This document shows positions 1,872 through 49,608 of a stretch of DNA of 54,486 nucleotides, in pieces (positions within the stretch are counted from its first letter, which is position 1; every line of letters begins with the position of its first letter). The notes under the pieces were generated by a model. That model saw only the letters and a program-made list of their open reading frames with translations, had not been told where the DNA came from and did no database searches. The DNA is taken from positions 11,406 to 65,891 of IMG/VR virus record IMGVR_UViG_3300029448_000023; one strand, written 5' to 3'. The translations under genes and the position numbers were made by a program. This DNA is from a virus.

Positions 1872-2396
1872 ATGATTAAACTTAAATCACTATTATTTGA
1901 ACAAGAAGAAAAAAAAATACATCCTCTCGTATCCAATTGGAAAAACGAGAAGGCACAATCTTATGCGTCTGTTCTTATAGAAAAATATGGTGAACCTAAA
2001 ATCAAAGGTAAAAAGATGTTGTTATGGGAAGATGTTACTTTAATTGATGAAGAAAAATATCAATACAAAGTTAAAAAGATTGACAAACTTTATATTATAG
2101 ATGAAGCAATTGCACATTCATTTCCAGCAGACCACATTGATTATTGTTACTCAACAATAAAAATACCACAAATACAAGCTAAAGATGGTAAGTCAACAAT
2201 TGAACCTGATTTAGTTGGTAAGTTTGCTGGTGTTACAGGTTCAATCATAATAGATGGATTGAAAGGTGAAGCTACAGCTCGATGTGGTGACACGGTAGCA
2301 AATGATGTAACACTTAATTTTGTATTAGATTCAATTGATGGTAAAATAGAACCATCAAAAGAAACATATGCAAAATCTATATTGGCGACACGATAA
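1872..2396 (+). CDS. Hypothetical protein with capsid-targeting-like leader
   Basis: 174 residues, starting MIKLKSLLFE followed by QEEKK. This leader has the short basic/hydrophobic form and the L-x-E end seen on many proteins here, consistent with a gp21-type cleavage after Glu10. The body begins with a helical WKNEKAQSYASVLIEKYGEP segment, and its C-terminal half is beta-rich with an IIDGLKGEA turn. I recognise no enzyme motif. The stop TAA shares its last base with the ATG of the next gene (TAATG), so translation is probably coupled. An internal head protein is the inferred role. Confidence 0.6.
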   Translation: MIKLKSLLFEQEEKKIHPLVSNWKNEKAQSYASVLIEKYGEPKIKGKKMLLWEDVTLIDEEKYQYKVKKIDKLYIIDEAIAHSFPADHIDYCYSTIKIPQIQAKDGKSTIEPDLVGKFAGVTGSIIIDGLKGEATARCGDTVANDVTLNFVLDSIDGKIEPSKETYAKSILATR

Positions 2397-3473: not shown

Positions 3474-6400
3474 ATGAATAAACTTGTAGAAGAAATAATT
3501 AAACCAATTTTAGAAGCCAACTCTAACATTAAAAAAGTTGTTGGTATCTATGGTGGTAGATTTCAACCTTTTGGTCCTCATCATTACAAAACTTATAAAT
3601 GGTTAACCAAACAAGTTGACGAAGCTTACATTACAACATCAAATATAAAGAAACCTCCAAGACATCCAATGAATTTCAAAGAGAAAGTTAGACATATGTC
3701 TAAAATGGGTGTTCCCTCAAATCGTATCATAGAAGAAAAGTCACCTTATGTGGCTAAAAACTTAGCAAAAAAATACGACAAAGACACAACAGCATTCGTT
3801 TATGTATTTGGTGCTAAAGATGCTGGTAGATTGGGTGGTAAATATTTCCAAGATTATAAGAAGAGTAAAGGTAACATAAATGGTTACGAAGAAAACGGAT
3901 ATTACTTAGTTGCACCGCATGTTTCAATATCAGTTGGTGGTAAAGAAGTTAGTGGAACAACAATGAGAGAATTATTAGGTTCAGATAAGTTTGATGATAA
4001 ACAAAGAGCTAAGTTATTTAAAAAAATGTTTGGATACTTTAATCAAGGTGTCTTCAATATGATGGTAAATAAATTCAAAAAATTATTTGAACAAGATGTT
4101 GTTACTTGGGACAATACAAAAGAAAAACCAAAAAAGAAAAAACATTTTGATGGTAAAGACAAAGATTTACTTCACGATAAACAAAATGAAACTATTGCTA
4201 TGGGATATCCTGATTTAAAAGGATTGAAGAAAAAATTAAAAAAAGTAAAAAAGGCTAGAAGTAAAACAGATAGTAATAAAGAGTATCAATATCATCCTGT
4301 TAGTGAAGGTTTACCAACAAAAGTAACAGACAAATATAAAAAAATGAAATTAGGTAAAAAAACATGGTCTGATGCAGAAAAAGATTTTTATCTACATCAT
4401 AGTGGAGACCATATTGGTATAGGTGCAGAATTAGATACTTATGATGGTGATGATGATGACAAAGAAAAGGGTGGTGTTCAACCTAATGAAAAAGATAAAA
4501 AGAAAAAAGGTTATGAACCAGTAAGAGAAATTGAATTACCAATTAAAGTTGGTGACACGGTTCTAATGGGTAAGTTTAAAAATAAAAAAGTTGTTATTAA
4601 AGATATTGACTTTAATGAAAAAGGTGATTTAACAATAAATGGTAGACCCGCTTTAAAATTTAGAATTGTAAAAGAGTTTTTAAATGATATTGATTTTAAT
4701 CAAATTATACAGGAAGCTACAAATACATCAACAGATGGTGGAGCAGTTGTAGACGATGGCCCAACTTTTGGGTTTGGTGACCTTGATAATTATGTTGATA
4801 TTAATGATATAATGACAAGAAAATTAGGTTTTAAAATAGTTGATTATATTGTTAATACTCCAACTGATAATGAACCAGATACACCTAAATATACAAACGA
4901 TGGAGCAGTGTCATATGGACCTGCAGGTATAGGTACAGGAAGAACACCTAATAATCAAATTGATTTAACAGGGAGTAAAGTTTGGACAGCTTGGGAAAAA
5001 TATATTGATGGTATAGCATCTACGGCTGGTATGAAATTTGTATCATATTTATTAGATAGAGATATAATCAAACAAACATCTGATGATTCAAAACAAACTA
5101 AAAAACTCAGAGACAAAGAAAATCCTGCAGAAACACCGGAAAGAAAGTATGTTGAAGAACAAATATTTACAAAACAATGGTGGAAGAATCAGTTAACAGA
5201 ACAAGTAGATAGTTCTAAACTAATATCAGTAGCAACTAATCTTTGTAAAAAATATGGTGTTAACCCAAAAATAGAATTAGTTAATACTTTAGGTAATCAA
5301 CACGAAGATTATGCTCACTTTGATTTTGATAAAAAAGTAATGAAAATATCAAAAAAAGCAACTAAAAATTTAAAAGAGTTTTTAATTTCTGTATTACACG
5401 AAATAGACCATGCGAAAGATTTAAAAAAGATGGGTAGAAAATTCATACAAGATTATGAAAAACAACAGAATATGATTGCTCAAGGATTTGTTAAAGGTAA
5501 AAAAGACCCTTATTGGGATAATCCATATGAAATAAAAGCAGAAAAATTTGGAAGAAAAGAAGCAAAAAAATATAATATAAAAAAATTATTTGAAGAATCA
5601 ATCCAAGAAAACATAGTTACAAAAACACAATTAAAACCAAGAGAGAAGGAGTTATTACTTATGGGAGGAGCTTACGGACATATGGCACATCCATTTGATG
5701 ACAAAGATTTAACTTTTGGTGATTTGAAAAAAATCATCACAGATGGATTAGGTGGACAATTGAATCGTGAAGATAATGTTACAGAAAAGTTAGATGGTCA
5801 AAACATAATGGTAAGTTGGAAAGATGGAAAACTTATAGCAGCTAGAAACAAAGGACACATCAAGAATGGTGGAAAGACTGCATTGGATGCAAAAGGTATT
5901 GCGAGTAAATTTAAAGGTAGAGGTGCTATAGCAGATGCATTTAATTTTGCTATGAAAGATTTAGGAAAATCAATAGGTGCATTATCTGATAAACAAAAAA
6001 TGAAGATATTCAACAATGGATACAACTTTATGAATTTAGAAGTAATGTGGCCTAAATCAGCTAATGTAATTGATTATGATGTAGCAGAATTAATATTTCA
6101 CGGAGCACTGATTTATGATGATAAAGGAAATGTAAAAGGTGAAGTAAAAGGTAGTGCTAGAATATTGGCTGGTATGATTAAACAAGTTAATCAACACATA
6201 GGAAAAAAATATTCAATTAGTAAGCCTGTATTTTTAACAATACCAAAACATCAAGACTTTGGTAAAAAGAAAGATAAGTTTTTAGGAAAATTATCTAAAT
6301 TACAAAATAAGTATAGTTTAAAAGATAATGATACATTAGGTTTATACCATCAGAAATGGTGGGAACAATTTATCCTTCAGAAACTTAAAAAGATACCTCA

Positions 6401-6875
6401 AAAATCATTAGAAGGATTGGTTAAAAGATGGGCTTTCTTTGATAAATCATATAAGATACCACAAATAAAAAAAGATTTAAAAGAACACGACATATTTTTA
6501 CAATTTGTATTAGATTTTGATAAAAAGAATCATGCAGCTCAAGTAAAAGAAAATATGAAACCATTTGAAACATTATTTTTTGAAGTAGGAGCTGAAATAT
6601 TAAAAAATGTTGAAGGTTTTATAGCCGCCAATCCAGATAAAGCTGTACAAAATATAAAGAAAAATTTAAAAAAGGCCATATCAGTTGTAAAAAGTGGTGG
6701 TGATATTAAAAAATTAAATAGATTAAAAGTTCAATTAGATAGATTAAATGCAATTGGTGGAACAAAAGCTATTGTTCCAAGTGAGGGAATAGTGTTTAAA
6801 TATAAAGGAAAGACTTATAAATTCACAGGTGCATTTGCTCCAGTGAATCAAATTACAGGTTTAATTTATTTTTAG
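3474..6875 (+). CDS. 1133-residue multi-enzyme chain: NMN-adenylyltransferase-like, zincin-like and DNA/RNA ligase-like domains split by protease sites
   Basis: Part 1 (residues ~15-206) has GGRFQPFGPHH (28-37) and a later SGTTMRELL, the nucleotide-binding HxGH-type and ISGTxxR motifs of NMN adenylyltransferases. Part 2 (~207-414) is lysine-rich and ends in a small beta domain (VGDTVLMGKFKNKKVVIKDI). Part 3 (~415-576) is unrecognised. Part 4 (~577-712) carries HEIDH at 642-646, a zinc protease HExxH motif. Part 5 (713-1133) has a KLDG motif with candidate nucleotidyl-lysine Lys772, LEVM (Glu856), and EGIVFKYKG followed by KTYKF (1104-1117), matching ligase motifs I, III, IV and V. Each junction carries (L/I)-x-E: ILE14|A, LFE206|Q, IQE414|A, LTE576|Q, LFE707|E and IQE712|N. 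The N-terminus is leader-like. I infer cleavage by the head protease into separate packaged enzymes. A single multidomain enzyme is the alternative. Confidence 0.75.
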   Translation: MNKLVEEIIKPILEANSNIKKVVGIYGGRFQPFGPHHYKTYKWLTKQVDEAYITTSNIKKPPRHPMNFKEKVRHMSKMGVPSNRIIEEKSPYVAKNLAKKYDKDTTAFVYVFGAKDAGRLGGKYFQDYKKSKGNINGYEENGYYLVAPHVSISVGGKEVSGTTMRELLGSDKFDDKQRAKLFKKMFGYFNQGVFNMMVNKFKKLFEQDVVTWDNTKEKPKKKKHFDGKDKDLLHDKQNETIAMGYPDLKGLKKKLKKVKKARSKTDSNKEYQYHPVSEGLPTKVTDKYKKMKLGKKTWSDAEKDFYLHHSGDHIGIGAELDTYDGDDDDKEKGGVQPNEKDKKKKGYEPVREIELPIKVGDTVLMGKFKNKKVVIKDIDFNEKGDLTINGRPALKFRIVKEFLNDIDFNQIIQEATNTSTDGGAVVDDGPTFGFGDLDNYVDINDIMTRKLGFKIVDYIVNTPTDNEPDTPKYTNDGAVSYGPAGIGTGRTPNNQIDLTGSKVWTAWEKYIDGIASTAGMKFVSYLLDRDIIKQTSDDSKQTKKLRDKENPAETPERKYVEEQIFTKQWWKNQLTEQVDSSKLISVATNLCKKYGVNPKIELVNTLGNQHEDYAHFDFDKKVMKISKKATKNLKEFLISVLHEIDHAKDLKKMGRKFIQDYEKQQNMIAQGFVKGKKDPYWDNPYEIKAEKFGRKEAKKYNIKKLFEESIQENIVTKTQLKPREKELLLMGGAYGHMAHPFDDKDLTFGDLKKIITDGLGGQLNREDNVTEKLDGQNIMVSWKDGKLIAARNKGHIKNGGKTALDAKGIASKFKGRGAIADAFNFAMKDLGKSIGALSDKQKMKIFNNGYNFMNLEVMWPKSANVIDYDVAELIFHGALIYDDKGNVKGEVKGSARILAGMIKQVNQHIGKKYSISKPVFLTIPKHQDFGKKKDKFLGKLSKLQNKYSLKDNDTLGLYHQKWWEQFILQKLKKIPQKSLEGLVKRWAFFDKSYKIPQIKKDLKEHDIFLQFVLDFDKKNHAAQVKENMKPFETLFFEVGAEILKNVEGFIAANPDKAVQNIKKNLKKAISVVKSGGDIKKLNRLKVQLDRLNAIGGTKAIVPSEGIVFKYKGKTYKFTGAFAPVNQITGLIYF

Positions 6876-7894: not shown

Positions 7895-8211
7895 AAACAT
7901 TAATTATGATATTATTGTGTTCATTAGTCTTTACTCAAGAAGTTGTACCTTGTGATGGTACTTGTTTATCAGAAGAAGAAACAAAAAATATCTTCAACAA
8001 TATACAAGAACTTGAATTTAATCTTGAAAAAGCTAAAACTCTAAATATAGAGTATGAAGATTTGATGAAAGATTATGAGGTACAAATAAAACTAAAAGAT
8101 GATATGATACAACTTGTCAAGCCAAAATGGTATGATAATAAATATCTTTGGTTCTTTGGTGGAATGTTAATAACAAGTGGTTCTGTTTATTTAGCAGGAC
8201 AAATTAAATGA
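7891..8211 (+). CDS. Exported coiled-coil protein with C-terminal membrane segment
   Basis: 106 residues: a signal peptide (MKTLIMILLCSLVFTQ), a CDGTC pair, a helical coiled-coil region (~30-75), then WYDNKYLWFFGGMLITSGSVYLAG as a C-terminal membrane segment. LLCS is not a good lipobox because position -1 is Leu. It overlaps its neighbours on both sides by 4 bases. With the two preceding ORFs it forms a compact set of small membrane proteins just before the terminase; a spanin-like or lysis role is a reasonable but unproven inference. Confidence 0.5.
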   Translation: MKTLIMILLCSLVFTQEVVPCDGTCLSEEETKNIFNNIQELEFNLEKAKTLNIEYEDLMKDYEVQIKLKDDMIQLVKPKWYDNKYLWFFGGMLITSGSVYLAGQIK

Positions 8212-9818
8212 GTCAAGATTATAAACAAATAATACAAAGAGAATATTTAAATTGTGTAAAAAGTCCAGTACATTTTATGAAAAAGTACTGCAAAATACAA
8301 CACCCTACAAAAGGGAAAATAAAATTCAATTTGTATGACTATCAACAAGAAATGTTAACAGATTTTGTTGATAATCGTTATAATATAATCTTAAAGTCAA
8401 GACAATTAGGTATATCAACTCTTTCAGCAGGATATTCATTATGGATGATGTTATTTAATCAAGATAAAAATATTCTTGTTATTGCAAAAGATAAAGATAC
8501 AGCTAAAAATCTTGTTACTAAGGTTAGAATAATGTATTCTAACTTACCACAATGGTTAAAGACAAATGTTATAGAAGATAATAAATTATCATTAGTATTT
8601 AGTAATGGTTCACAAATTAAAGCAGTAGCTGCAACAGCTGAAGCAGGTCGTTCAGAAGCACTATCTTTACTTGTTATTGATGAGGCTGCTTTTATTGACA
8701 AGATTGATTCAATATGGACTGCGGCACAACAAACACTCGCAACGGGTGGTGATTGTATAGCGTTATCAACACCTAATGGTGTGGGTAATTGGTTTCATCA
8801 ACAATGGATGGGAGCTGTAGATGAAACAAATAATTTTAATACAATAAAACTTCATTGGACTTGTCATCCAGATAGAGATGAAGCATGGAGAGCAGAACAG
8901 GATAAAGTATTAGGCCCCTCACAAGCAGCACAAGAATGTGATGCAGACTTTCTTACTTCAGGTGAATCTGTAGTCGACCCTCAAATATTGTCTTGGTATA
9001 AAGATAATCAAGTGTGTGAACCTGTTGAAAAACTAGGTATAGACAATAATTTATGGATATGGGAACAACCTGATTATACAAAAGAATACATAGTGGTTGC
9101 TGATGTGGCTCGTGGTGATGCTGCAGACTTTTCTGCAACTCAAGTTTTTGAGGTTGATACTATGACACAATGTGCTGAATACAAAGGTAGATTATCAACT
9201 ACAGATTACGGTCATTTTTTGATAGATTTAGCCACAAAATACAATGATGCACTACTTATAGTAGAGAACAATAATATAGGATGGGCTACAATACAAACCA
9301 TCATAGATAGAGGTTATAAAAATTTATTTTATCAATCAAAAGATTTACAAGTGGTTGATGTCGAACATCAGATGAGTAATAAGTACAGGACACAAGATAG
9401 AAATATGGTACCAGGGTTTTCAACAACAGCTAAAACTCGACCATTGATTATTGCAAAAATGGAAGAATATGCAAGAGAAAAATTAGTTAATATAAAATCA
9501 TCAAGATTAATTGAAGAATTATTTGTTTTTATATATAAAACAGGATTGATAAATTCAAGAGCAGAAGCTATGAAAGGATATAATGATGATTTAGTTATGT
9601 CTTTTTCTATTGCTCTTTGGATAAGAGATACAGCATTAAGATTACAAAAAGATAAAAACGACCAACAATGGGCTGTTATGAATGGTATATTACAGAATAA
9701 TGGTAATTCAAACTCAGAAGCAGCTTCAGGGTTTTCAAAGGGTAATCAAAATCAAAACAATCCCTTTGAAATGAACACGGGTAAAGATAAAGAAGATTTA
9801 TCCTGGTTAATTAAATAA
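8208..9818 (+). CDS. terL: Terminase large subunit (gp17-like)
   Basis: ATPase and nuclease of the DNA packaging motor. The N-terminal ATPase has KSRQLGIST (63-71). This is a deviant Walker A, with no Lys before Ser/Thr and the lysine instead at the start (Lys63), as in lambda TerL. Walker B is LLVIDEA (Asp158-Glu159), and the coupling motif is STP (187-189). The C-terminal RNase H-like nuclease shows VVADVARGD (Asp298), LIVENNN (Glu352) and GYNDD (Asp459/460) as candidate metal ligands. At 536 residues it is somewhat shorter than T4 gp17 (610). The start overlaps the previous stop (ATGA), and the portal gene follows 12 bases after the stop. Confidence 0.95.
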   Translation: MSQDYKQIIQREYLNCVKSPVHFMKKYCKIQHPTKGKIKFNLYDYQQEMLTDFVDNRYNIILKSRQLGISTLSAGYSLWMMLFNQDKNILVIAKDKDTAKNLVTKVRIMYSNLPQWLKTNVIEDNKLSLVFSNGSQIKAVAATAEAGRSEALSLLVIDEAAFIDKIDSIWTAAQQTLATGGDCIALSTPNGVGNWFHQQWMGAVDETNNFNTIKLHWTCHPDRDEAWRAEQDKVLGPSQAAQECDADFLTSGESVVDPQILSWYKDNQVCEPVEKLGIDNNLWIWEQPDYTKEYIVVADVARGDAADFSATQVFEVDTMTQCAEYKGRLSTTDYGHFLIDLATKYNDALLIVENNNIGWATIQTIIDRGYKNLFYQSKDLQVVDVEHQMSNKYRTQDRNMVPGFSTTAKTRPLIIAKMEEYAREKLVNIKSSRLIEELFVFIYKTGLINSRAEAMKGYNDDLVMSFSIALWIRDTALRLQKDKNDQQWAVMNGILQNNGNSNSEAASGFSKGNQNQNNPFEMNTGKDKEDLSWLIK

Positions 9819-12896: not shown

Positions 12897-13259
12897 ATGT
12901 CATCAATGTACCAATCAAGTTCATTTAACGAAGCAGGTGTAACACGACCTTATGCACAGATACCGAAAACACCAGATTTTAGTAATGTATTTAATAAAGT
13001 TACTGCACCAGCAGCTGGAGTAGTTCAAGAAGCACCTAATAGTGTTATACTAAATAATGCAGGTAGTTATAAATTTTGTTACACTACATCTGCATCGTTA
13101 GCTGGTTCAACTCTTGACCCAACTGATTACATATCTGGTTCTGTTTTAGACGGTGATAGTGGTCCAATTGAATTACCTATTCAACCAGTAGCATGGGCAG
13201 CAGCAGGAGCTGCAGCTAAAACAGGTGATGTAACATTCGTATATAAAGGAGTAAAATAA
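12897..13259 (+). CDS. Small beta-rich head-region protein of unknown function
   Basis: 120 residues, low in lysine and rich in Ser, Ala, Pro and Val, unlike its basic neighbours. The N-terminus is extended (TRPYAQIPKTPDFSNVFNKV). It is followed by beta-type stretches (SYKFCYTTSAS, DPTDYISGSVLD, DVTFVYKG). The composition is typical of an exposed structural protein such as a decoration or head-fibre subunit, but I do not recognise one. The ribosome binding site AGGAG precedes ATG 12897, and the stop overlaps the protease start (TAATG). Confidence 0.5.
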   Translation: MSSMYQSSSFNEAGVTRPYAQIPKTPDFSNVFNKVTAPAAGVVQEAPNSVILNNAGSYKFCYTTSASLAGSTLDPTDYISGSVLDGDSGPIELPIQPVAWAAAGAAAKTGDVTFVYKGVK

Positions 13260-13885
13260 TGAAGCAAGTAATAGTAGATTATATTCCATTTGAAGTATCA
13301 CCACAACAAATTAATGAGTCAATGAAAAACAACAATGGTAGATTGGTTGTTAAAGGAGTATTGCAAAGAGCAGAAGCTAAAAATCAAAACGGAAGAGTTT
13401 ATCCAAAAGAAACTTTAGTTAGAGAAGCTAAAAAATATGCTGAGATTCAAATTGCTGAACGAAGAGCACTTGGTGAGTTAGACCATCCAGATTCATCTGT
13501 TGTTAACTTGAACAATGTATCTCATAATGTATTGGAAATGCATTGGAAAGATAATGATTTAGTTGGTACGGTCGAGGTATTAGGAACTCCTGCAGGAAAT
13601 ATTTTAAAAGAATTATTTAAATCAGGCATTAAACTTGGTATATCATCAAGAGGACTTGGTTCAGTAAAAGAAATGAACGAAAATGAAGATGGTGATACGG
13701 TAGAAGTACAACCTGATTTTGAACTTATCGCATTTGATTTTGTATCAAATCCATCTACACACGGAGCTTTCTTATCACCAACAAATGAAGGAAAATTAAA
13801 TGAAGGTGTTGGGACAAGAGATGGTGTGTGTTGTCACGATTGCAAAATTGAAAACATAATCAACGATATTTTCAGAGGAGAATAA
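13259..13885 (+). CDS. Prohead maturation protease (gp21-like)
   Basis: 208-residue serine protease that should process scaffold, capsid and core proteins during head maturation. Conserved family segments are NGRVYP (44-49), GELDHP with catalytic His76, GISSRG with catalytic Ser129/130, and AFDFVSNPS (Asp160 region). Its length equals that of T4 gp21. T4 gp21 cuts after (L/I)-x-E. A KLNE|G site (Glu182) near the C-terminus may be a self-processing site, and the major capsid gene carries LINE|F after residue 61. The C-terminal tail with CCHDC is unusual and may bind metal. Confidence 0.9.
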   Translation: MKQVIVDYIPFEVSPQQINESMKNNNGRLVVKGVLQRAEAKNQNGRVYPKETLVREAKKYAEIQIAERRALGELDHPDSSVVNLNNVSHNVLEMHWKDNDLVGTVEVLGTPAGNILKELFKSGIKLGISSRGLGSVKEMNENEDGDTVEVQPDFELIAFDFVSNPSTHGAFLSPTNEGKLNEGVGTRDGVCCHDCKIENIINDIFRGE

Positions 13886-14297: not shown

Positions 14298-14731
14298 TGC
14301 CTTCAGTATCTAAACAACAACAAAAGTTTTTTGGAGTTGTGAAAGCAATGCAAAAGGGTGATACACCTAAAAAAGGAAAAGCAGGAAAAGCTGCTAAATC
14401 AATGAGTAAAGATGATGTTGATGATTTTGCTTCAACGAAACATAAAGGATTACCAAAAAAGGTAAAAAAGGAAATGAAAGTCAGAGAATTAATAAAAAAA
14501 TTAGTTAGAGAAATAATGACTGAAGAACAAATTACAGAAGCTTTAGATGCTAAAAAAATTAAAAAAGAATTAAACAATAGTTTAAAGGGTGTTAGAAAAA
14601 ATAACTTTACTTTAGCTAGAGAGTTAAATAAAATTAACAAAACAAAAGCTAAACAAGTTATGGTATTATATAAACGATACATAATCGAATATCAAATTCG
14701 AATTGAAAAAATACTGAGAGATGTTAAATGA
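14297..14731 (+). CDS. DUF3008-like domain protein with head-protease-type sites
   Basis: The first ~55 residues (MPSVSKQQQKFFGVV...GDTPKKGKAGKAAKSMSKDDVDDFASTKHKGLPKKV) match the DUF3008 pattern known from bacteria and phages, function unknown. A leader-like helix then appears internally (KVRELIKKLVREIMTEEQITEA), giving IMTE|E and ITE|A sites, followed by a basic helical C-terminal part. The chain would be cut into a DUF3008 piece and a ~65-residue basic peptide if the head protease acts here. It overlaps both neighbours by 1-4 bases. Confidence 0.6.
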   Translation: MPSVSKQQQKFFGVVKAMQKGDTPKKGKAGKAAKSMSKDDVDDFASTKHKGLPKKVKKEMKVRELIKKLVREIMTEEQITEALDAKKIKKELNNSLKGVRKNNFTLARELNKINKTKAKQVMVLYKRYIIEYQIRIEKILRDVK

Positions 14732-15177
14732 AAATAACAATGAAAAGATTAAAAGAAATCATTAGAGAAGAGTTAATTAATGAGAAGGTATTTGGTTCAC
14801 AAGCACAATATGATGCTTATAGAAAAAAACATAATTTAAAACCTGGTACAAAAGTTAAAGTAGCAGGTAAAACAATTACCGTTAAAGGTAAAGGTAAAAT
14901 GTCTAAAAAGGCTAAATCAACAGCTGATAGAATGGCTGATAAATTAAATAAAAAAATGGATGCTTTGAATAAAAAACGAACACAAGGTAAAGTTACAGAA
15001 AATGAAAAAATACCTGGTGAGTTAAAAAGATATATGGATAGATTTTTAGACAAATTAAAAGATAGAAATTTAGTAAGAGCTAAAAAGAAAGAAGTTTTGA
15101 AAAAAGTTTTACAAACATTAGGTATATCTCCTAAAGAATTACAAATGTATATGCAAAGAGTTAAAAGAGAGATATAG
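14728..15177 (+). CDS. Basic internal-head-protein candidate with capsid-targeting-like leader
   Basis: 149 residues, starting MKITMKRLKEIIREELINE, a basic amphipathic helix ending in I-N-E, the same residues as the capsid protein site (LINE). The body has a short beta segment (GTKVKVAGKTITVKGKGK) and lysine-rich helices, giving a strongly positive protein suited to packaging with DNA. It overlaps upstream by 4 bases, and its stop TAG shares a base with the GTG of the next gene. No family recognised. Confidence 0.6.
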   Translation: MKITMKRLKEIIREELINEKVFGSQAQYDAYRKKHNLKPGTKVKVAGKTITVKGKGKMSKKAKSTADRMADKLNKKMDALNKKRTQGKVTENEKIPGELKRYMDRFLDKLKDRNLVRAKKKEVLKKVLQTLGISPKELQMYMQRVKREI

Positions 15178-15491
15178 TGAAACTTATAGACTTATTATTA
15201 GAAAAAAAAGTTGAATTTCCGGAAAAAGATGTAGATTTGGTTAGGAAATACACACATCAAAATCAACATCAGTCCGCTAGGTCACATATAGCTTATTATG
15301 GATGGTCAAAATATGGTAATAGAAATCTTAAAAAATTTGATGAATTTTATAGACTATTAAATAAATTAGGAGATGTATTAGGTGGTTTCGGTCCAGAATT
15401 AAGTAAACTTAAACAAAAAATGGAAAAACCATTTTACAAAGAAATAAAAAAAACTTTTTCAAATGCAGAAGACATTATAAGGAATCTATAG
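15177..15491 (+). CDS. Small protein with short capsid-targeting-like leader, GTG start
   Basis: 104 residues, starting at GTG 15177 inside the previous stop (TAGTG). The leader MKLIDLLLE ends in L-L-E before KK. The body is helical with aromatic residues (YTHQNQHQSARSHIAYYGWSKYGNRN). The first 24 bases around the start are almost the same as those of the next gene, although the protein bodies differ, suggesting that the leader moves as a unit. Function unknown; inferred internal head protein. Confidence 0.55.
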   Translation: MKLIDLLLEKKVEFPEKDVDLVRKYTHQNQHQSARSHIAYYGWSKYGNRNLKKFDEFYRLLNKLGDVLGGFGPELSKLKQKMEKPFYKEIKKTFSNAEDIIRNL

Positions 15492-15976
15492 TGAAACTTA
15501 AAGACTTATTAAATGAATTAGCTATTACTCGAGGTAAAGTTTATACTGATAAAGATTTAAAACCTTTTAAAGTAGATGAAGATAAAATTGATGAAGCTGG
15601 TTCAATTGGTGGAGCTCTCGATATGAGTAGTATAGAAAATAGTTATACAGCTCCAAAAAGAGACACAAGTGTTAAAAATCAAGGTGTTTATTTACAAAAG
15701 TTTTCATCAAAAGAAGCAAGAGCAACTATTGATGGGGCATTAAAAAATTATGTAAAAGATTTAAGAAAGGTTCAAGGTAAAGTTGTTAAGGATTGGATGA
15801 AAGCAGCAAAAGCAAATCAAATTGATTTCTTTGATATTATAAGAGGATTAAAAACAGGTGATGTACGAAGAGCACATCAATATGAAACAGATTTTTTAGT
15901 AAGTTTATTAACAAAAGATAAAATCATTGATAGATTCAGAAGTTATTTTAAAGGTAAAAAAGGTAAAAAAAGATAA
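15491..15976 (+). CDS. Hypothetical protein with capsid-targeting-like leader, GTG start
   Basis: 161 residues, GTG start inside the previous TAG. The leader MKLKDLLNE ends in L-N-E, an excellent (L/I)-x-E site, followed by LAITRGKVYTDKDLKPF. The central part is glycine/serine-rich; the C-terminal two thirds form charged helices (VKDLRKVQGKVVKDWMKAAK, DFFDIIRGLKTGDVRRAHQYE) with a lysine-rich end. No enzyme motif. It ends at a TAATG overlap with the next gene. Confidence 0.55.
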   Translation: MKLKDLLNELAITRGKVYTDKDLKPFKVDEDKIDEAGSIGGALDMSSIENSYTAPKRDTSVKNQGVYLQKFSSKEARATIDGALKNYVKDLRKVQGKVVKDWMKAAKANQIDFFDIIRGLKTGDVRRAHQYETDFLVSLLTKDKIIDRFRSYFKGKKGKKR

Positions 15977-16263
15977 TGGCTACAAATAAAGATATTATTA
16001 AAAAATTAGATTGTGTTGAAGAAAGATTAACTAATGGTGAATTAGAAGAAATACATTCAACGGTAAAAGAAATTAAAGAAGTTTTGTTAGACCCTGAAGA
16101 TGGGTTGATTGTTCGTGTGAATAAAAACACATATTGGAGAAAACAAATCAATATACAAGATATAGAAGAATTAAAGAATTTTAAATCAAATGTAACTCAT
16201 GCACTTTGGGGTGTTTACACTTTAGTGTTGGGTATAATAGCTAAAATATTATTTTGGAAATAG
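15976..16263 (+). CDS. Coiled-coil protein with C-terminal transmembrane helix (XhlA-like topology)
   Basis: 95 residues. A charged coiled coil (~5-45, VEERLTNGELEEIHSTVKEIKEVLL) is followed by a polar stretch and a single C-terminal membrane helix (THALWGVYTLVLGIIAKILFWK). This layout resembles XhlA/holin-accessory proteins. It is unexpected inside a run of prohead core genes, where it could instead anchor prohead assembly to the membrane (T4 proheads initiate on the inner membrane). No sequence family is certain. Confidence 0.5.
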   Translation: MATNKDIIKKLDCVEERLTNGELEEIHSTVKEIKEVLLDPEDGLIVRVNKNTYWRKQINIQDIEELKNFKSNVTHALWGVYTLVLGIIAKILFWK

Positions 16264-16272
16264 GAGATAAAA

Positions 16273-16683
16273 ATGGCTTTAGAAAATATGACATCACAAT
16301 TTCAACCACAAGTAACTACACCTTCTAATGGACAAGCAGGTGCTACTGGTCAAGGATTAGAGAATCTTACAAATCAAGGTTCAAATTTAAATTTAGATGA
16401 CAATCCTATCTTATCAAATGCATTAGCAAATAATCAAGGATTGGAAAATGTTACTAATGCAGGTTCAACTTTAAATATTGATGATGAACCAACAGAATCA
16501 TTAGGACTTGCTAATGGTGTTGGATTGGAAGCTTTAACAGCTAGTGATTCAAATTTAGATATAGATACAAACCCAACTAATTCAAATGGATTAAATGAGA
16601 CCGCATTATCTGTAGGTCTATCAAATTTAGAAATAGGTGCTGAAACTGATATGAGTGACGGATTAGCATCTGGAAATGTTTAA
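16273..16683 (+). CDS. Acidic protein of tandem ~28-residue repeats
   Basis: 136 residues with no lysine-rich segment, unlike its neighbours. Repeats begin at Gly28 (GLENLTNQGSNLNLDDNP), Gly56 (GLENVTNAGSTLNIDDEP), Gly84 (GLEALTASDSNLDIDTNP) and, degenerate, Gly115, with a partial copy at residues 2-6. Spacings are 28, 28 and 31 residues. The Gly-Leu-Glu turn and the Asn/Asp-rich strand suggest a repetitive beta structure or calcium-binding stalk. The ribosome binding site AGGAG precedes ATG 16273. An exposed head or fibre component is possible; not recognised. Confidence 0.55.
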   Translation: MALENMTSQFQPQVTTPSNGQAGATGQGLENLTNQGSNLNLDDNPILSNALANNQGLENVTNAGSTLNIDDEPTESLGLANGVGLEALTASDSNLDIDTNPTNSNGLNETALSVGLSNLEIGAETDMSDGLASGNV

Positions 16684-16706
16684 GTATAACTTAAGGAGAA
16701 ATGAAA

Positions 16707-17327
16707 ATGAAAAAACTAAAAAATATATTAGGTGAGGCTTTCGAGGATACACAAAGAGTCGATAAACACAAGGTAGTTGAAGGTGTTAGAAACTTTGGTA
16801 TTGTTGGAAAAACACTTTATAATAATAATAATGTGATGGAAGTTGCAAAACAACTTTCTGATATAGCTGAATCAGCACACAATCATATTCTTAGTGAACA
16901 AGATGATTGGTTTGATAAGATTTCAGTAAACAAGAATATGAAATCATTAAAAGGTAGTGTGGTTGAATTTCAAAAAACTGCTAAAGAAGCTAATGCTTTG
17001 AATCAAAGATTGACTGGTCTTTATGAGGATATTGGGCATGTATTGAATCGTTACTATGACATCGATGAGGCTATTGAAGAAATGGATAAACCAGATGAAG
17101 ATGAATTAGACAATGACTATGATGATAGAGAAGATAAAGACATTGATAATGATGGTGATTCTGATGATTCAGATGAGTATCTTCACAAAAAAAGACAAGC
17201 AATTAGTAAAGCTATGAAAGAAACTAAACACGAGGTAGACTCAAAACCAACTATTAAATTAGCAGATTTAGCGTCTAATATTGTCACTAATAAACCTGTC
17301 GGTGACCTTACTAAAAAACATAATTAA
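16707..17327 (+). CDS. Prohead-core-like acidic protein with capsid-targeting-like leader
   Basis: I choose ATG 16707 (206 residues): AAGGAG at 16693-16698 is 8 bases upstream, whereas ATG 16701 is only 2 bases from it. The leader MKKLKNILGE|A has I-L-G-E before Ala, close to the T4 internal protein site. The middle is helical, and the C-terminal part contains DKDIDNDGDSDDSDEYLHKKRQAISKA, an Asp-rich EF-hand/dockerin-like loop common in marine T4-like head clusters. It likely binds calcium or acts as a scaffold piece. Inferred internal/core protein. Confidence 0.6.
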   Translation: MKKLKNILGEAFEDTQRVDKHKVVEGVRNFGIVGKTLYNNNNVMEVAKQLSDIAESAHNHILSEQDDWFDKISVNKNMKSLKGSVVEFQKTAKEANALNQRLTGLYEDIGHVLNRYYDIDEAIEEMDKPDEDELDNDYDDREDKDIDNDGDSDDSDEYLHKKRQAISKAMKETKHEVDSKPTIKLADLASNIVTNKPVGDLTKKHN

Positions 17328-21445: not shown

Positions 21446-23095
21446 ATGTCAAATTATATAAACGAAGCTTTACTTGACGCGTCTCCAATGAAGAAACAGC
21501 AATCAGAAGCTAAAGGACTTGTTAATAAGTGGGATAAAACAGGTCTTTTAGATGGTCTTAATGAAGATTTTAAAAGACAAAGTATGGCGGTTCTTCTTGA
21601 GAATCAAGCAAAGCAACTAATCAATGAGTTTACAACTACAAGTCCTAATGCAGGAGTTGCAGGTGGAAACTACAAAGGTGATGAAGAATGGTCAGGTGTG
21701 GCTCTTCCATTGGTTCGTAGAATCTTTGGTGAAATAGCAGCACAAGAGTTTGTATCAGTTCAACCTATGAACTTACCTTCAGGTCTTGTATTCTATCTTG
21801 ATTTCCAACACGGAAAAACAAGAATGGGATTCACTGCAGGTGATTCAATTCACGGTAACACTGGTCCAAATTCACCGTCTGGTTCATCAGCACCTTATCC
21901 TGATAAAGGATTTTACGGAACAGGTAAATACGGATATACCGTTGGAACAGCTTCAAATCAGTCATTTAATGTAACTGGTTCAGCTGTAAGTTCAACATTA
22001 TCTGAAATTAATTTTGATTCTGAAAATTCAGCATCAGGATTATTTAAACTATCTTCTACTGCTCTTACAGGTCCTGTTGATACAGCAGCTGTTAGAGGTT
22101 GGAATGTTACTTTATCTGGATTCAACGCTGGCGAGACCGTTACAGAGTATAAAGGTGGTCAGTATAGAACTATAGCTGGTGATGATACATCTCCAGGTGT
22201 GTTTACAACCGTTGTTCAATTAGGTGATGTTGGTCAAACAGCTCCTTCTGGTTCACTTGTTGTTTCACCTATCGTATCTAATGTAGAATCATCAAGAGGT
22301 GATTTTGAAGATAAAGGTGGCGACGCTACTAATGATTCACTACAAATACCTGAAGTTGACTTGAAACTAAAATCAAGACCAATCGTTGCTAAAACTCGTA
22401 AGTTGAAAGCAGTTTGGACTCCTGAGTTAGCTCAAGACTTAAACGCTTATCATTCAGTTGACGCTGAAGCTGAATTAACATCTATGTTAAGTGAGTACAT
22501 TTCAATGGAAATTGATTTAGAAATCTTAGATATGTTAATCAACGATGCTGTAACAACTGATTACTGGTCAGCTAAAGTTGGTAAATACTATGATTCATCA
22601 GCTTCTGCTTTTGCAGAAAATACTAGCGGATATGCATATACTAAATTTGAATGGTATCAAACACTTGTTGAAAAAATACAAAAAGTGTCAAATACAATTC
22701 ATCAATTAACTCTAAGAGGTGGTGCTAACTTTGTTGTTGTATCTCCAAAAATAGCAACTATTTTAGAGTCAATTCCAGGATATGCAGCTTCAACTGATGG
22801 TAACAAAGCTCAGTTTGCAATGGGAGTATCGGCAGTCGGTTCAGTTGCTGGACGATTCACCGTATACAAAAATCCATATATGACTGAAAATGTAATCTTA
22901 GTTGGATTTAGAGGTTCAAACTTCCTTGAAACAGGTGCAGTATATGCTCCATATGTTCCATTGATTATGACTCCTCTTGTGTATGACCCAAGTGACTTCA
23001 CACCAAGAAAAGGTGTAATGACACGATACGCTAAGAAAATGATTAGACCAGAGTTTTATGGTAAAATCTATTGTTCAGACTTAAACTTAATATAA
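21446..23095 (+). CDS. Major capsid protein (gp23-like)
   Basis: 549 residues, close to T4 gp23 (521). Typical segments are FKRQSMAVLLENQAKQLINE, GDEEWSGVALPLVRRIF, ARTLKAVWTPELAQDL-like KLKAVWTPELAQDLNAYH, and the C-terminal RKGVMTRYAKKMIRPEFYGKI. The N-terminal part up to LINE (Glu61) should be removed by the prohead protease, leaving FTTTSPNAG as the mature N-terminus; this matches the gp23 cut after residue 65 in T4. The ribosome binding site TAGGAG lies 12 bases after the scaffold stop. A strong terminator follows. Confidence 0.95.
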   Translation: MSNYINEALLDASPMKKQQSEAKGLVNKWDKTGLLDGLNEDFKRQSMAVLLENQAKQLINEFTTTSPNAGVAGGNYKGDEEWSGVALPLVRRIFGEIAAQEFVSVQPMNLPSGLVFYLDFQHGKTRMGFTAGDSIHGNTGPNSPSGSSAPYPDKGFYGTGKYGYTVGTASNQSFNVTGSAVSSTLSEINFDSENSASGLFKLSSTALTGPVDTAAVRGWNVTLSGFNAGETVTEYKGGQYRTIAGDDTSPGVFTTVVQLGDVGQTAPSGSLVVSPIVSNVESSRGDFEDKGGDATNDSLQIPEVDLKLKSRPIVAKTRKLKAVWTPELAQDLNAYHSVDAEAELTSMLSEYISMEIDLEILDMLINDAVTTDYWSAKVGKYYDSSASAFAENTSGYAYTKFEWYQTLVEKIQKVSNTIHQLTLRGGANFVVVSPKIATILESIPGYAASTDGNKAQFAMGVSAVGSVAGRFTVYKNPYMTENVILVGFRGSNFLETGAVYAPYVPLIMTPLVYDPSDFTPRKGVMTRYAKKMIRPEFYGKIYCSDLNLI

Positions 23096-26575: not shown

Positions 26576-28411
26576 ATGGCAGAAAAAGTAGTCTCTCCAG
26601 GTGTGTTTACAAACGAAATCGATGCATCCTTTTTACCAGCAGCTATAGGTGATATAGGTGCTTGTATAATAGGACCAACCTTTAAGGGACCAGCTTTAGT
26701 TCCAACGGTTGTTAATTCAATGGCAGAGTTTGAAGCAACATTTGGTACAACATTCAGAAGTGGTTCGAATTATTATCAATTCTTAACATCACACACAGCA
26801 GAACAATATTTACAAAACGGTGGACCACTTACCGTTGTTAGAGTAAGTACTGCTACAGCAGCTACATCAAAAATATTTAAAGTTGACTCGGCTGGTAAAT
26901 TCAGTCAACCTTATCAATCAGGTTCAGGTAATGAAACATTAACTTTTGAAACAATAGGTGATGGATTAATTTATAATAACCATGGTGGAACTGGTACATC
27001 ATACGATAATATCGAAGATGCTGAAGAAGGGACAAATAATGTTCTAACATCAGGTTCTTCTGATAATTATAGAGTTGAAATATCAGGTGTTAATAATGCA
27101 AGAGGAACATTTAATGTTTCTATTAGAAGTGGTGGTGATACAATTAAAAGAAAATCAGTATTAGAAACTTTTAATAATGTTTCACTTGACCCTAATTCAA
27201 ACAATTACATTGAAAGAATAATTGGAAACCAAGATTTAACATTAAATGGTTCAGGAACAACAGAACCATACATTAAACCAGTTGGTGAATTTCCAAATAA
27301 ATCTAAATTCGTTAGAGTTAAAACGGTTCACTCATCGACACCTAATTATTTAAATGAAAATGGTGCAAGAACAGATGATAACTTCACAGGTTCTTTACCA
27401 GTAGCTCAATCATCTTCATTTATTGGTGGTGGTGCAGGTGTAGCTAGTTTTGATTTATATGGTGGGTCTCACGGTTCAGCTGATGTTATTCCAGCTAATT
27501 TCTATGATTCAATTGAATCAGGAAATAATCAAGGGTTAAACACTGGTGATTCAACAACATTAACTGCTTATGAAGATGCTATCAATTTAATGGCAAATGC
27601 AGATGAATACGATATTAATCTAATGATGTTACCAGGGTTAAATATAGAAAATGATTCAGCTTTAATTAATAAAGCTATTGATGTCTGTGAAACAAGAGCA
27701 GATGCTTTCTTGATTGCAGACCCTGTTAACTATGGCTCTTCAGTAACAACCGTTAATAGTAAGGCAGATTCTATAGATTCAAATTATGCAGCTGTTTATT
27801 GGCCTTGGGTTCAAATTCAAGATGCTAGAAACAATGGTGCTTTAAGATGGGTTCCACCTTCAGTTGTATTGGGTGGTGTTTATGCATTTAATGATAAAGT
27901 AGCTCATCCATGGTTTGCACCTGCAGGTCTTAACAGAGGTGGTCTTGATACGGTAGTTCAAGCTGAAAGAAAACTATTGTTAAGTCAAAGAGATACACTT
28001 TATGATTCAAGTGTTAATCCGATTGCAACTTTCCCTGGACAAGGTGTAACGGTATTCGGTCAAAAAACACTACAAAAGAAATCAAGTGCTCTTGATAGAA
28101 TCAATGTTAGACGATTACTTATCAGAGTTAAGAAGTTTATCGCTTCTTCATCTCGTTTCTTAGTGTTTGAACAAAACAATGAACAATTAAGAAAACGATT
28201 CTTAAATATCGTGAATCCATTCTTAGAACAAGTTCAATCACAAAGTGGACTAAGTGCCTTTAAAGTTGTAATGGACGAAACCAATAATACACCTGACACT
28301 ATTGATAGAAATCAATTAATAGGTCAGATATTCTTACAACCAACTCGAACAGCCGAGTTTATTATATTGGATTTCACAATACAACCAACTGGAGCAGCAT
28401 TTCCAGAGTAA
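26576..28411 (+). CDS. Tail sheath protein, copy 1 (gp18-like)
   Basis: 611 residues (T4 gp18 is 659). The N-terminus VVSPGVFTNEIDASFLPAA, the central VYWPWVQIQDARNNGALRWVPPSVVLGGVYAFND, and the C-terminal SSRFLVFEQNNEQLRKRFLNIVNPFLEQVQ...GQIFLQPTRTAEFIILDFTIQPTG are hallmark sheath segments. The sheath contracts to drive the tail tube through the host envelope. A second, longer copy follows at 28478. The ribosome binding site AGGAG is 9 bases from ATG. Confidence 0.95.
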   Translation: MAEKVVSPGVFTNEIDASFLPAAIGDIGACIIGPTFKGPALVPTVVNSMAEFEATFGTTFRSGSNYYQFLTSHTAEQYLQNGGPLTVVRVSTATAATSKIFKVDSAGKFSQPYQSGSGNETLTFETIGDGLIYNNHGGTGTSYDNIEDAEEGTNNVLTSGSSDNYRVEISGVNNARGTFNVSIRSGGDTIKRKSVLETFNNVSLDPNSNNYIERIIGNQDLTLNGSGTTEPYIKPVGEFPNKSKFVRVKTVHSSTPNYLNENGARTDDNFTGSLPVAQSSSFIGGGAGVASFDLYGGSHGSADVIPANFYDSIESGNNQGLNTGDSTTLTAYEDAINLMANADEYDINLMMLPGLNIENDSALINKAIDVCETRADAFLIADPVNYGSSVTTVNSKADSIDSNYAAVYWPWVQIQDARNNGALRWVPPSVVLGGVYAFNDKVAHPWFAPAGLNRGGLDTVVQAERKLLLSQRDTLYDSSVNPIATFPGQGVTVFGQKTLQKKSSALDRINVRRLLIRVKKFIASSSRFLVFEQNNEQLRKRFLNIVNPFLEQVQSQSGLSAFKVVMDETNNTPDTIDRNQLIGQIFLQPTRTAEFIILDFTIQPTGAAFPE

Positions 28412-28477: not shown

Positions 28478-30778
28478 ATGGCAAAAAAACTAATCAGTCC
28501 AGGTGTATTAACAAACGAGATAGATGCATCATTTTTACCAGCAGCCTTAGGAGCAATAGGAGCTGCTGTTGTTGGTCCAGCATCAAAAGGACCTGTTTTA
28601 GTTCCTACCGTAGTTAATAATACAAGAGAATTAGACGATTTATTTGGAGGAGTATTTACAAGTGGTAGTAATCGATATGAATATTTTACTACGATAACTG
28701 CTAAAAAGATTTTAAAAACAAAAGGACCAGTTACATTCGTTAGAGTTAGTGCTGGAAGCCCAAGTGCAGCAGTAAATGGTACATTAACACAAACTGAAGT
28801 TTCAAATTCACTACAAGGTCAATCAGGAACAACTTTTGCATCTACTCAAGACTCAGGTTCTATATTATCGTCAACAGATGTTGATGTTGTTGGAACAGGG
28901 GCAGGTGGAGTAGCAGCAACAGGAAGTTTTCAAATAGCTGGGGGATTATATCACTCACCTACAAATTTACAAGCATCTATGAGTATTGGAAATGTTGATT
29001 TTATATTTACATCAGCATCTGTTGATTTAGCTACAAACACAACTAATGATACTACTATTTTTGTACAATCTGGTTCAAATGTAACAGCAACAGCAATAAA
29101 CTTTAGAAATACGATTAACAATAGTGGTTCTTTTCATAATTTAAGTTTGTCTGCAAGTAATAGTTCAGGTGTAGTTTCATTAACAGCTACCGTTCAAGGT
29201 AATATGAACGATGGAGTGCATGTACACAGATGGTACAATGGAGTGACACCATCAGGACTTGATAATTTATTAATGGTAACCAGTTCCGGTGATGGGGCAT
29301 TATTTTCAAATGTTTCACAACTGAATGGTGGTAGAGATGCCGATACACATTTAAAAATACCATTTAAAATAGAAACTATTGCAGTAGGTGAAACACTAAA
29401 TAGTAGAACGACAGCTACTGGAGGAACACTTAGAACTGATGGTACATTAATCAAAGGTGATACTGATAATGTGAGATGGGAAATACAAGAAGTTGATACA
29501 ACCGTTGGTACATTTTCACTATTAGTCAGACAAGGAAGTGATTCTCATAAAAGACCAATAATTTTAGAAAAATTTGAAAACTTATCATTAGATTCTACAC
29601 AACCAAATTATATAGAAAAAGTAATAGGAAATCAAGTAACTACTTTACAAGGTAGTGGTACAACAGAACCGTATGTAAAAGTAGTAGGTGAGTATGCAAA
29701 TAAATCCAGATTCATAAGAGTAACAGATGTAAATCCATTACCAAACTATCTGGATGAAAATGGTAATTTAACTATATCTGAAGCTTCAGCATCTTTACCA
29801 GCTGTAGGAAGTGGTTCTTTAGGTGGTGGTTTTATCAATGGTTCAGATGGTACCAAAAGTCACCCTATTAATTTTTATGATACAATAACATCAACTAATA
29901 CACAAGGATTAAATCCTACGGCAGCATTATCAGGTAAAACTGCTTACGAAGATGCAATTAATTTACTTGCTAATCAAGATGAATATGATATTAATTTATT
30001 ATACATGCCAGGCATAACAAGTGCTGACCATAGTGCAATAGTCACTAATGCTCTTGAAATGTGTGAAAATAGAGGTGATTGTTTTGCAGTAATAGACCCT
30101 GTGTTATATAATTCTTCATTAAGTGCTGTAACCAGTGAAGGTACTAAATTTAACTCAAGTTATGGTGCAATGTATTGGCCTTGGATTCAAATAAATGATG
30201 ACGCAGGTATGTATAGGTGGGTACCAGGTTCTGTAGGAGCAGCTGAAGTATTTGCTTTCAATGATAAAACAAAGCATCCATGGTTTGCTCCAGCTGGATT
30301 AAATCGTGGTACTATAAATGCAGTACAAGCAGAAAGAAAATTGTTAAATAGTACAAGAGATACATTGTATAGAAATAGAATTAATCCAATTGCTACATTC
30401 CCAGGACAAGGTGTTACAATTTTTGGACAAAAAACATTACAGAAAAAATCATCAGCTCTTGATAGAGTTAATGTGAGAAGATTATTGATAGCAGTTAAAA
30501 AGTTTATTGCTTCATCTTCAAGATTCTTGGTGTTTGAACAAAATACACCAGCTTTGAGAAGAGAATTTTTAGCAATAGCTAATCCATATTTAGAAAAAGT
30601 ACAATCTAAAAGTGGTTTAAATGCTTTTAAAGTAGTGATGGATAACACAAATAATACACCTGACACTATTGATAGAAATCAATTGATAGGACATATATTT
30701 TTACAGCCAACTAAAGCAGCTGAATTTATAACAATTGATTTCACAATTCAAAGAACGGGTGCTGAATTTAGTGAATAA
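28478..30778 (+). CDS. Tail sheath protein, copy 2, with large internal insertion (gp18-like)
   Basis: 766 residues. N- and C-terminal regions are closely similar to copy 1 (LISPGVLTNEIDASFLPAA; SSRFLVFEQNTPALRREFLAIANPYLEKVQ; GHIFLQPTKAAEFITIDFTIQ). The difference is an insertion of about 150 residues after GPVTFVRVSAG (about 95-270), rich in Ser, Thr and Gly with beta character, likely an extra surface domain on the sheath. Both copies keep the C-terminal domain needed for the sheath mesh. Mixed sheaths or alternative tails are possible. The ribosome binding site is AGGAG. Confidence 0.93.
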   Translation: MAKKLISPGVLTNEIDASFLPAALGAIGAAVVGPASKGPVLVPTVVNNTRELDDLFGGVFTSGSNRYEYFTTITAKKILKTKGPVTFVRVSAGSPSAAVNGTLTQTEVSNSLQGQSGTTFASTQDSGSILSSTDVDVVGTGAGGVAATGSFQIAGGLYHSPTNLQASMSIGNVDFIFTSASVDLATNTTNDTTIFVQSGSNVTATAINFRNTINNSGSFHNLSLSASNSSGVVSLTATVQGNMNDGVHVHRWYNGVTPSGLDNLLMVTSSGDGALFSNVSQLNGGRDADTHLKIPFKIETIAVGETLNSRTTATGGTLRTDGTLIKGDTDNVRWEIQEVDTTVGTFSLLVRQGSDSHKRPIILEKFENLSLDSTQPNYIEKVIGNQVTTLQGSGTTEPYVKVVGEYANKSRFIRVTDVNPLPNYLDENGNLTISEASASLPAVGSGSLGGGFINGSDGTKSHPINFYDTITSTNTQGLNPTAALSGKTAYEDAINLLANQDEYDINLLYMPGITSADHSAIVTNALEMCENRGDCFAVIDPVLYNSSLSAVTSEGTKFNSSYGAMYWPWIQINDDAGMYRWVPGSVGAAEVFAFNDKTKHPWFAPAGLNRGTINAVQAERKLLNSTRDTLYRNRINPIATFPGQGVTIFGQKTLQKKSSALDRVNVRRLLIAVKKFIASSSRFLVFEQNTPALRREFLAIANPYLEKVQSKSGLNAFKVVMDNTNNTPDTIDRNQLIGHIFLQPTKAAEFITIDFTIQRTGAEFSE

Positions 30779-48976: not shown

Positions 48977-49608
48977 AAGAAAAATTAAAATATGCTAACG
49001 GAAACATGCCGTTATTTGAAACAGAACAAAAAAATATGATTGAAGAAGCAGCTGAACATTATGGTAAATATATGGATGCTCTTGGATTTGATTGGAGAAA
49101 TGACCCTAATTCATCAGACACACCAATGAGGGTTGCTAAATCTTTTGTTAATGATTTAGCTCATGGTTGTTACAATCACGAACCTAAGATTACAGCGTTT
49201 GATAATGTTGATGGATATGATGGAATGGTATTTCAAGGAAACATTAAAGTAAATTCATTTTGTTCACATCATCATTTACCTTTTATAGGAGTAGCTCACA
49301 CAGCTTACATTCCAAGTAAAGATGGTAAAATTATTGGATTGAGTAAATTGAATAGAATTGTTGAACATTATGCTCGTAGACCTCAAGTACAAGAAAATTT
49401 GACAATGCAGATTCACGACCATATCAATAAAATGTGTACTGATAATCTAGGAGTGGCTGTTATGATTTCATCAGGTCATATGTGTGCTTGTGTTCGTGGT
49501 GTTAAACACGATGCTACAATGAAAACATCAAAACTAAGTGGTGAGTTTATGAGAGATGGTAGTAAAGCTCGGTCAGAATTTTATAGTTTTGTAAAGGATT
49601 TAAAATGA
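48973..49608 (+). CDS. folE: GTP cyclohydrolase I
   Basis: 211 residues. Zinc ligands appear as FCSHHHLPF (Cys97, His100) and HMCACVRG (Cys171), with the conserved IIGLSKLNRIVEHYARRPQVQE and DTPMRVAKSF segments. It converts GTP to 7,8-dihydroneopterin triphosphate, the first step of folate and of 7-deazaguanine (preQ0) synthesis. In phages FolE is often linked with 7-deazaguanine DNA modification; no other gene of that pathway is in this window. It overlaps both neighbours by 4 bases inside the replication operon. Confidence 0.93.
   Translation: MKEKLKYANGNMPLFETEQKNMIEEAAEHYGKYMDALGFDWRNDPNSSDTPMRVAKSFVNDLAHGCYNHEPKITAFDNVDGYDGMVFQGNIKVNSFCSHHHLPFIGVAHTAYIPSKDGKIIGLSKLNRIVEHYARRPQVQENLTMQIHDHINKMCTDNLGVAVMISSGHMCACVRGVKHDATMKTSKLSGEFMRDGSKARSEFYSFVKDLK

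Follow-up and report, generated by a model that had tools for sequence, protein, structure and literature searches.

We analysed a window of 54,486 nucleotides (positions 11,406 to 65,891 of the 65.9 kb IMG/VR virus record IMGVR_UViG_3300029448_000023), the source of which appears to be a marine T4-like virus of bacteria, and found in its head region a gene for what is probably a modular polyprotein that brings cargo into the virion of a T4-like phage and is matured by the head protease. The 1133-residue product comprises, in order, a nucleotidyltransferase of the NMN adenylyltransferase (NMNAT) type, a KOW-like piece, a helical module (module C), a zincin and an RNA-ligase-like domain. Its architecture is modular, (L/I)-x-E tripeptides stand conserved at the borders, modules have been exchanged at these tripeptides among relatives, and the gene is located in a head operon with a T4 gp21-type protease and a capsid protein that bears the same motif. 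Coordinates are window positions and are collected in Table 1; a slash after a glutamate marks a site at which the chain would be cut.

Border motifs and module exchange among relatives

A first-pass annotation, made from the letters alone, had described the gene as a chain of enzymes with head-protease sites between the domains. The motifs it had named, GRFQPFGPHH (residues 28-37), SGTTMR (160-165), HEIDH (642-646), EKLDG (Lys772), EGIVFKY and KTYKF, were all found again in the single open reading frame (ORF), as were the six (L/I)-x-E tripeptides ending at residues 14, 206, 414, 576, 707 and 712, cuts at which would yield pieces of 14, 192, 208, 162, 131, 5 and 421 residues (computed).

Related ORFs (146, of which 77 were non-redundant) were collected from viral and binned contigs and aligned as whole ORFs; domain fragments, with identities of about 15-20%, misaligned. 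A clean breakpoint was defined as a place where one protein is continuous and the other carries an extra block of at least 40 residues. Among the 77 non-redundant polyproteins, 73 of 210 clean breakpoints are no more than 5 residues from (L/I)-x-E; 300 rotations gave 19.6 on average and never more than 33. The control motifs (L/I)-x-D, (L/I)-x-K and (L/I)-x-N are at chance near breakpoints. (V/M/F)-x-E is also enriched there, less than (L/I)-x-E, as expected of a slightly relaxed cleavage site. In a looser test, 212 of 400 edges of local similarity among 34 polyproteins fell within 15 residues of (L/I)-x-E, against 94 when rotated. The motif at Glu414 is kept in 28 of 33 relatives despite a flank identity of 18%, and motifs inside domains are rarely kept (87 in 4/33, 1004 in 3/33). 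Before the ligase core, (L/I)-x-E occurs within 25 residues in 57 of 60 sequences; where the LLxE/GG site touching the ligase has become LLLM or LLxC, most sequences have another site upstream. One relative without the zincin (L079) has lost 136 residues from LTE/ to IQE/, almost exactly 577-712, Glu to Glu. In these alignments it is the position of the motif, not its number, that exceeds chance, with border sites conserved and situated at exchange breakpoints, and relatives in the sea appear to exchange modules at these sites.

Several findings weigh against processing at these sites. Six further (L/I)-x-E tripeptides, omitted by the first-pass annotation, end at 6, 87, 88, 635, 643 and 1004, and 6 of the 12 are outside the border set. 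The total of 12 compares with 8.4 expected from composition (348 against 279 over 34 polyproteins), and the count in the single protein is near chance and not clearly above it; motif counting in one protein was therefore dropped as evidence, and the case was built on comparison among relatives. No (L/I)-x-E is found within 25 residues before the NMNAT part in 10 of 36 relatives, several of which have VNE there, nor before the ligase in 3 of 60. The stretch 207-414 contains no internal (L/I)-x-E though it is the most variable between relatives, and the full-length AlphaFold model described below has modest confidence (mean pLDDT 60.7). Because the relatives share descent, the counts are not independent events, a dependence to which the control motifs are equally subject.

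The near-chance motif count would also suit a chain that is never cut, that is, a multidomain protein of the polyvalent type (see below) whose domains act together in virion or cell and in which (L/I)-x-E marks recombination-prone linkers. Some polyvalent proteins, the N4 virion RNA polymerase among them, enter the capsid without being cut (PMC5512222), and the NMNAT and ligase parts are joined in distant relatives even where the junction motif is unclear (L235). A linker with drifting flanks, however, need not keep exactly L/I-x-E, the control motifs show no such association with breakpoints, and stand-alone relatives of the modules begin with a leader that ends at the same motif; we regard an uncut chain as unlikely.

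Head protease, capsid site and leader

On the same strand after the polyprotein gene, the late region of the window encodes terminase, portal, the gp21-type protease, a gp23-type capsid protein, tail sheath and tape measure. In 49 of the 51 related loci with enough sequence, the terminase gene follows the polyprotein gene at a distance of 0.7-4.4 kb and on the same strand. A conserved L-(I/V)-x-E closes the pro-peptide of the capsid protein, and (L/I)-x-E is present in that short stretch in 53 of 55 relatives. The cleavage site of T4 gp21 is directly behind L/I-X-E, and cargo is brought into the head by leaders 10-19 residues long (PMC9026906). The border motif of the polyprotein is the same as this known specificity and as the phage's own capsid site, and the gp21-type protease encoded in the same late region is the likely processing enzyme. 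The N-terminus had been read as leader-like, and comparison with T4 cargo and core proteins bears this out: leaders from the T4 record, for example MKTYQEFIAE/ of IPII/IPIII, are comparable to residues 1-14, MNKLVEEIIKPILE.

The zincin offers another candidate for the cutting. Carrying HEIDH and NPYExxAE, it might cut the junctions of its own chain with the head protease uninvolved, as release by embedded zincins has been proposed for polyvalent proteins (PMC5512222). Most relatives, however, have no zincin and nevertheless keep the border motifs, so that self-processing is unlikely to be general, and the motif coincides with gp21 specificity and the capsid site; we consider this explanation very improbable.

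Predicted structure and border positions

The full-length model was compared with the positions of the border glutamates. Confident blocks comprise residues about 20-206, 577-669 and much of 743-1095, with a weaker block at 361-394; low-confidence stretches are 207-354, 413-435, 530-574 and 673-742. The border sites at 206, 414, 576, 707 and 712 are within or at the edge of low-confidence stretches, the leader around residue 14 has modest confidence, and the sites at 87/88, 635, 643 and 1004 sit in folded parts. Predicted domain limits thus agree with the border glutamates, which supports the first-pass reading of a modular chain with protease sites at its borders. Sequences from the phage collection were left out of two alignments used for folding.

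Enzyme modules

By fold and motifs, there is good reason to assign residues 15-206 to the NMNAT superfamily of nucleotidyltransferases. The module scores 27.3 bits against Pfam PF01467 (cut-off 21), its profile matches NadM and archaeal NMNATs among solved structures (E 1.4e-6), and its best Foldseek match is the bifunctional NadM 2qjt (E 9e-4, probability 1.0). It shares the GRFQPxxxxH and SGTxxR motifs of NadM-type NMN adenylyltransferases, and differs from them in having no Nudix partner and in being joined to a ligase-like domain. NaMNAT and PPAT structures match as well, so that activity on NMN is at most predicted.

The KOW-like module is a small beta module, named from its sequence and strands without a profile match, with the consensus IxVGDTVxxGKFKNKKVxVKxI...NGRPALKFR (window 4530-4673, L066-L144). 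It often stands directly behind a leader, MxKLTEWLVKPLLE/, and could possibly be a core-binding or DNA-binding tag of cargo.

Residues 577-707 are assigned to the zincins on their motifs: HExxH and the key downstream Glu (third ligand) are conserved in five sequences, and in the profile search against solved structures the best match, projannalysin, is not significant (E 0.2). Residues 713-1133 are RNA-ligase-like in sequence, with ligase motifs I, Ia, III, IV and V present and the lysine and other catalytic positions invariant in 30 sequences. All five nucleotidyltransferase motifs of the T4 RNA ligase 1/2 superfamily are thus kept, and the module differs from that superfamily in its own long C-terminal helical region and its GHMxHPFD N-terminus. 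In the model of the module (pLDDT 78), T4 Rnl1 is first and Rnl2 fourth among fold matches in the PDB, none of them significant (Foldseek E 0.15), and many RNA ligases stand at ranks 16-30 against a viral structure library. The module scores 12.9 bits against PF09414, below the cut-off of 27; its profile gave no significant match among solved structures, and of the T4 proteins compared with it, DNA ligase and Alt showed no match and Rnl2 showed motif I only. The enzyme names of the first-pass annotation therefore hold at superfamily level for the NMNAT, by motifs for the zincin and by the full set of motifs for the ligase, without a significant profile match for the last two. Of 34 members, 3 gave a match to PF01653 (NAD-dependent ligase), the best with E 0.0064, and the idea that the NMNAT recycles NMN from an NAD-using ligase was dropped, this match being too weak.

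Relatives as mosaics

Relatives of the whole polyprotein occur in 59 viral loci, and single modules are common to many more. Variation is concentrated outside the NMNAT and ligase parts, which hardly change: the relative in Microcystis phage Mel-JY01 consists of these two parts only, and the longest (L228) has 1909 residues. Some relatives contain a CCA-adding enzyme module (PolyA_pol E 6.5e-30; tRNA nucleotidyltransferase PHROG E 1.6e-57), and others an HD domain, a zeta/polynucleotide-kinase-like kinase, a ParB-like module or one of several modules of unassigned type; one has a match in a Pseudomonas phage protein annotated as PLxRFG. RNA repair against tRNA-cutting defences classically relies on ligase, CCA-adding enzyme and kinase (PMC7824862), and the module repertoire (ligase, CCA-adding, polynucleotide-kinase-like) has, as judged from sequence, an RNA-repair theme.

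Contigs assigned by binning to Erysipelotrichaceae and Bacillus genomes also contain NMNAT-ligase-like fusions (L235:5260-7209 and L234:2392-4440), one of them on a 400 kb contig; this occurrence suggests that NMNAT and ligase are an old functional pair that reaches beyond marine T4-like phages. In Prochlorococcus phage P-TIM68 (L240:2743-3864), a polyprotein module with the sequence SDLYTDENPKGTIHGL... is part of a hypothetical protein whose gene follows that of the major head protein at a short distance.

The composition of the mosaics also bears on what the pieces are for. They might be cut in the prohead and serve head assembly, as scaffold-like core peptides that leave the capsid, with no effectors injected. 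In T4, gp22 and gp67 are broken down to numerous fragments, most of which are removed (PMC9026906), and the short peptides between paired sites in relatives, such as FLIHNDIGKIFE between IDE/ and its own final site, would be pieces of this kind. The modules are, on the other side, folded enzymes with invariant catalytic residues, and they are swapped for CCA-adding, kinase and HD enzymes, which is unexpected for a scaffold; a purely structural role therefore seems improbable.

Proposed mechanism and relation to known systems

From the gene order, the sites and the modules we infer a sequence of events from cleavage and packaging to injection and action in the host. The polyprotein would be made late, as one chain, alongside the head proteins, and its amphipathic N-terminal leader, probably together with the short helices before later sites, would direct it to the prohead core. 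There the gp21-type protease would cut after (L/I)-x-E, releasing the NMNAT-type nucleotidyltransferase, the KOW-like piece, the helical piece, the zincin, the RNA-ligase-like enzyme and small spacer peptides. Once freed, the enzymes would be packaged along with the DNA and would most likely accompany it into the cell, where, as early as the first minute, RNA-ligase and NAD-related activities may undo or compensate for the effects of host defences that damage RNA or NAD.

The class joins two known ideas, polyvalent proteins and the capsid-targeted cargo of T4. The polyvalent proteins that Iyer et al. 2017 (PMC5512222) described from phages and conjugative elements likewise carry several unrelated catalytic domains per polypeptide, are thought to be delivered with DNA and are extremely mosaic. 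They include zincin and ParB-like modules, a set that may in part be common to both, and their analogy to viral polyproteins has already been drawn there. The window protein has the at least two unrelated enzymatic domains that characterise them (NMNAT, zincin motifs, ligase-like). It differs in its joints, which bear a separate T4-type head-protease motif where PMC5512222 proposes release by embedded zincins or C-terminal assemblin-like peptidases, and release by an embedded peptidase does not fit a class in which the joints are mostly preserved without any zincin in the chain. The RNA-ligase, CCA-adding and kinase repertoire differs too. In the text of PMC5512222 the NMNAT-ligase core was not found by the terms searched and the word cyanophage is absent; cyanobacteria are stated there to have few polyvalent proteins. 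The T4 internal proteins IPI-IPIII and Alt share the short N-terminal leader ending in (L/I)-x-E and the gp21-type protease, and the window phage has both, together with a gp23 that bears the site; in T4, however, there is one gene and one leader per cargo, whereas here one gene would supply several enzymes. The ejection proteins of giant phages are cut by phiKZ gp175 / SPN3US gp245, head proteases that act on many head proteins behind a Glu within a short motif; this is described as pro-peptide removal and not as the release of several enzymes from one chain (PMC10052503).

The first-pass claim of a new kind of virion cargo was accordingly too strong, since multi-enzyme virion proteins have been predicted (PMC5512222) and gp21-trimmed cargo is known from T4 (PMC9026906). 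What looks new is the combination, exchangeable polyproteins cut by the head protease, as a widespread class rather than a single curiosity; no earlier description of this class was found in the searchable literature, a coverage that leaves out most subscription journals. We lean towards the more general view that tailed phages have true enzyme polyproteins, late genes of interchangeable enzymes separated in the head by the capsid protease, in which maturation doubles as cargo release and marine T4-like phages rearrange RNA-repair/NAD kits by swapping modules between sites. Were this so, sense could be made of many hypothetical proteins in marine T4-like phages, as (L/I)-x-E cuts would divide them into separate enzymes with guessable functions, and the set of enzymes carried would hint at the defences a phage meets. 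DNA phages would gain a polyprotein strategy like that of RNA viruses, using the capsid protease, and predictions follow for the virions of the cultured relatives Mel-JY01 (NMNAT-ligase fusion) and HTVC008M (stand-alone kinase).

Table 1. Features of the polyprotein gene and its surroundings (window positions unless a locus is named)
Feature	Residues	Position	Strand	Basis or remark
Modular polyprotein gene	1-1133	3474..6875	+	ATG start, one open frame; ORF reading, relatives
Leader MNKLVEEIIKPILE/	1-14	3474..3515	+	Like T4 capsid-targeting leaders; helix 2-15 in model
Border site (L/I)-x-E	Glu14	3507..3515	+	Motif at most 10 residues away in 27/33 relatives
NMNAT/NadM-type nucleotidyltransferase module	15-206	3516..4091	+	Pfam, structure profile, Foldseek
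Border site KLFE/	Glu206	4083..4091	+	Kept in 19 of 23 ungapped relatives
Low-complexity stretch and KOW-like module	207-414	4092..4715	+	Model; most variable part among relatives
KOW-like recurring module	~353-400	4530..4673	+	At least 264 viral loci
Border site IIQE/	Glu414	4707..4715	+	28/33 relatives, flank identity 0.18; Glu invariant in A7
Module C, helical	415-576	4716..5201	+	Comparison with relatives, model
Border site QLTE/	Glu576	5193..5201	+	Left limit of removable zincin module
Zincin-like module, HEIDH and NPYExxAE	577-707	5202..5594	+	Motifs, model; distant relatives in L133-L135
Border site KLFE/	Glu707	5586..5594	+	Sequence and model
Border site SIQE/	Glu712	5601..5609	+	Right limit of removable zincin module
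RNA-ligase-like module	713-1133	5610..6872	+	Motifs EKLDG, ARNKG, NLEVM, EGIVF, YKFTG
Large terminase		8208..9818	+	Conserved neighbour downstream
T4 gp21-type head maturation protease		13259..13885	+	phrog_207 E 3.4e-52
gp23-type major capsid protein		21446..23095	+	Pro-peptide ends QLINE/ (Glu61)
Head-region ORF, leader MIKLKSLLFE/		1872..2396	+	Possible further cargo
Two head-region ORFs, leaders MKLIDLLLE/ and MKLKDLLNE/		15177..15976	+	Possible further cargo
Head-region ORF, leader MKMKKLKNILGE/		16701..17327	+	Possible further cargo
N-half ligase genes		L020:4257-4565, L021:3429-3725, L022:3248-3499		Downstream of polyprotein

Stand-alone and split modules

A metagenomic jumbo phage genome (L238) encodes the ligase by itself, starting MKFLKSYEEFLNE/NLILE/GGSYGHL..., and Pelagibacter phage HTVC008M (L239) encodes the kinase by itself, starting MIPFILKE/GLYDPGIF.... 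A domain encoded singly therefore bears its own leader, ending at the same place.

In three loci (L020, L021 and L022) the ligase is split over two genes between SWKED and GKLIAARNKG. The C-half ends the upstream polyprotein and in L020 and L022 starts with GKLIAARNKG right behind LSE/ or LIKE/; the separate downstream ligase gene has its own LLNE/ or LLLE/ and ends in KLDGQNLMISWKED or a close variant. The halves are complementary and do not overlap, and an assembly artefact is unlikely because the three contigs come from different samples. Judged by these sequences, the ligase could be a naturally split, virion-assembled enzyme, each piece being trimmed and then reassembled.

Other leader-bearing ORFs and neighbouring genes

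Small head-region ORFs of the window (14728-17327 and 1872-2396) begin with short hydrophobic or basic leaders ending in (L/I)-x-E, which makes more packaged proteins likely. A lysozyme at 31463 starts with MKTFKEIIE, which we do not take for a targeting leader, as the GH108 domain match starts at residue 9. The window further contains two adjacent full-length tail sheath genes (26576-28411 and 28478-30778, both phrog_23), a GTP cyclohydrolase I (48973-49608, E 2.9e-46) and a second, stand-alone cytidylyltransferase-like protein (53509-53955, E 4e-14).

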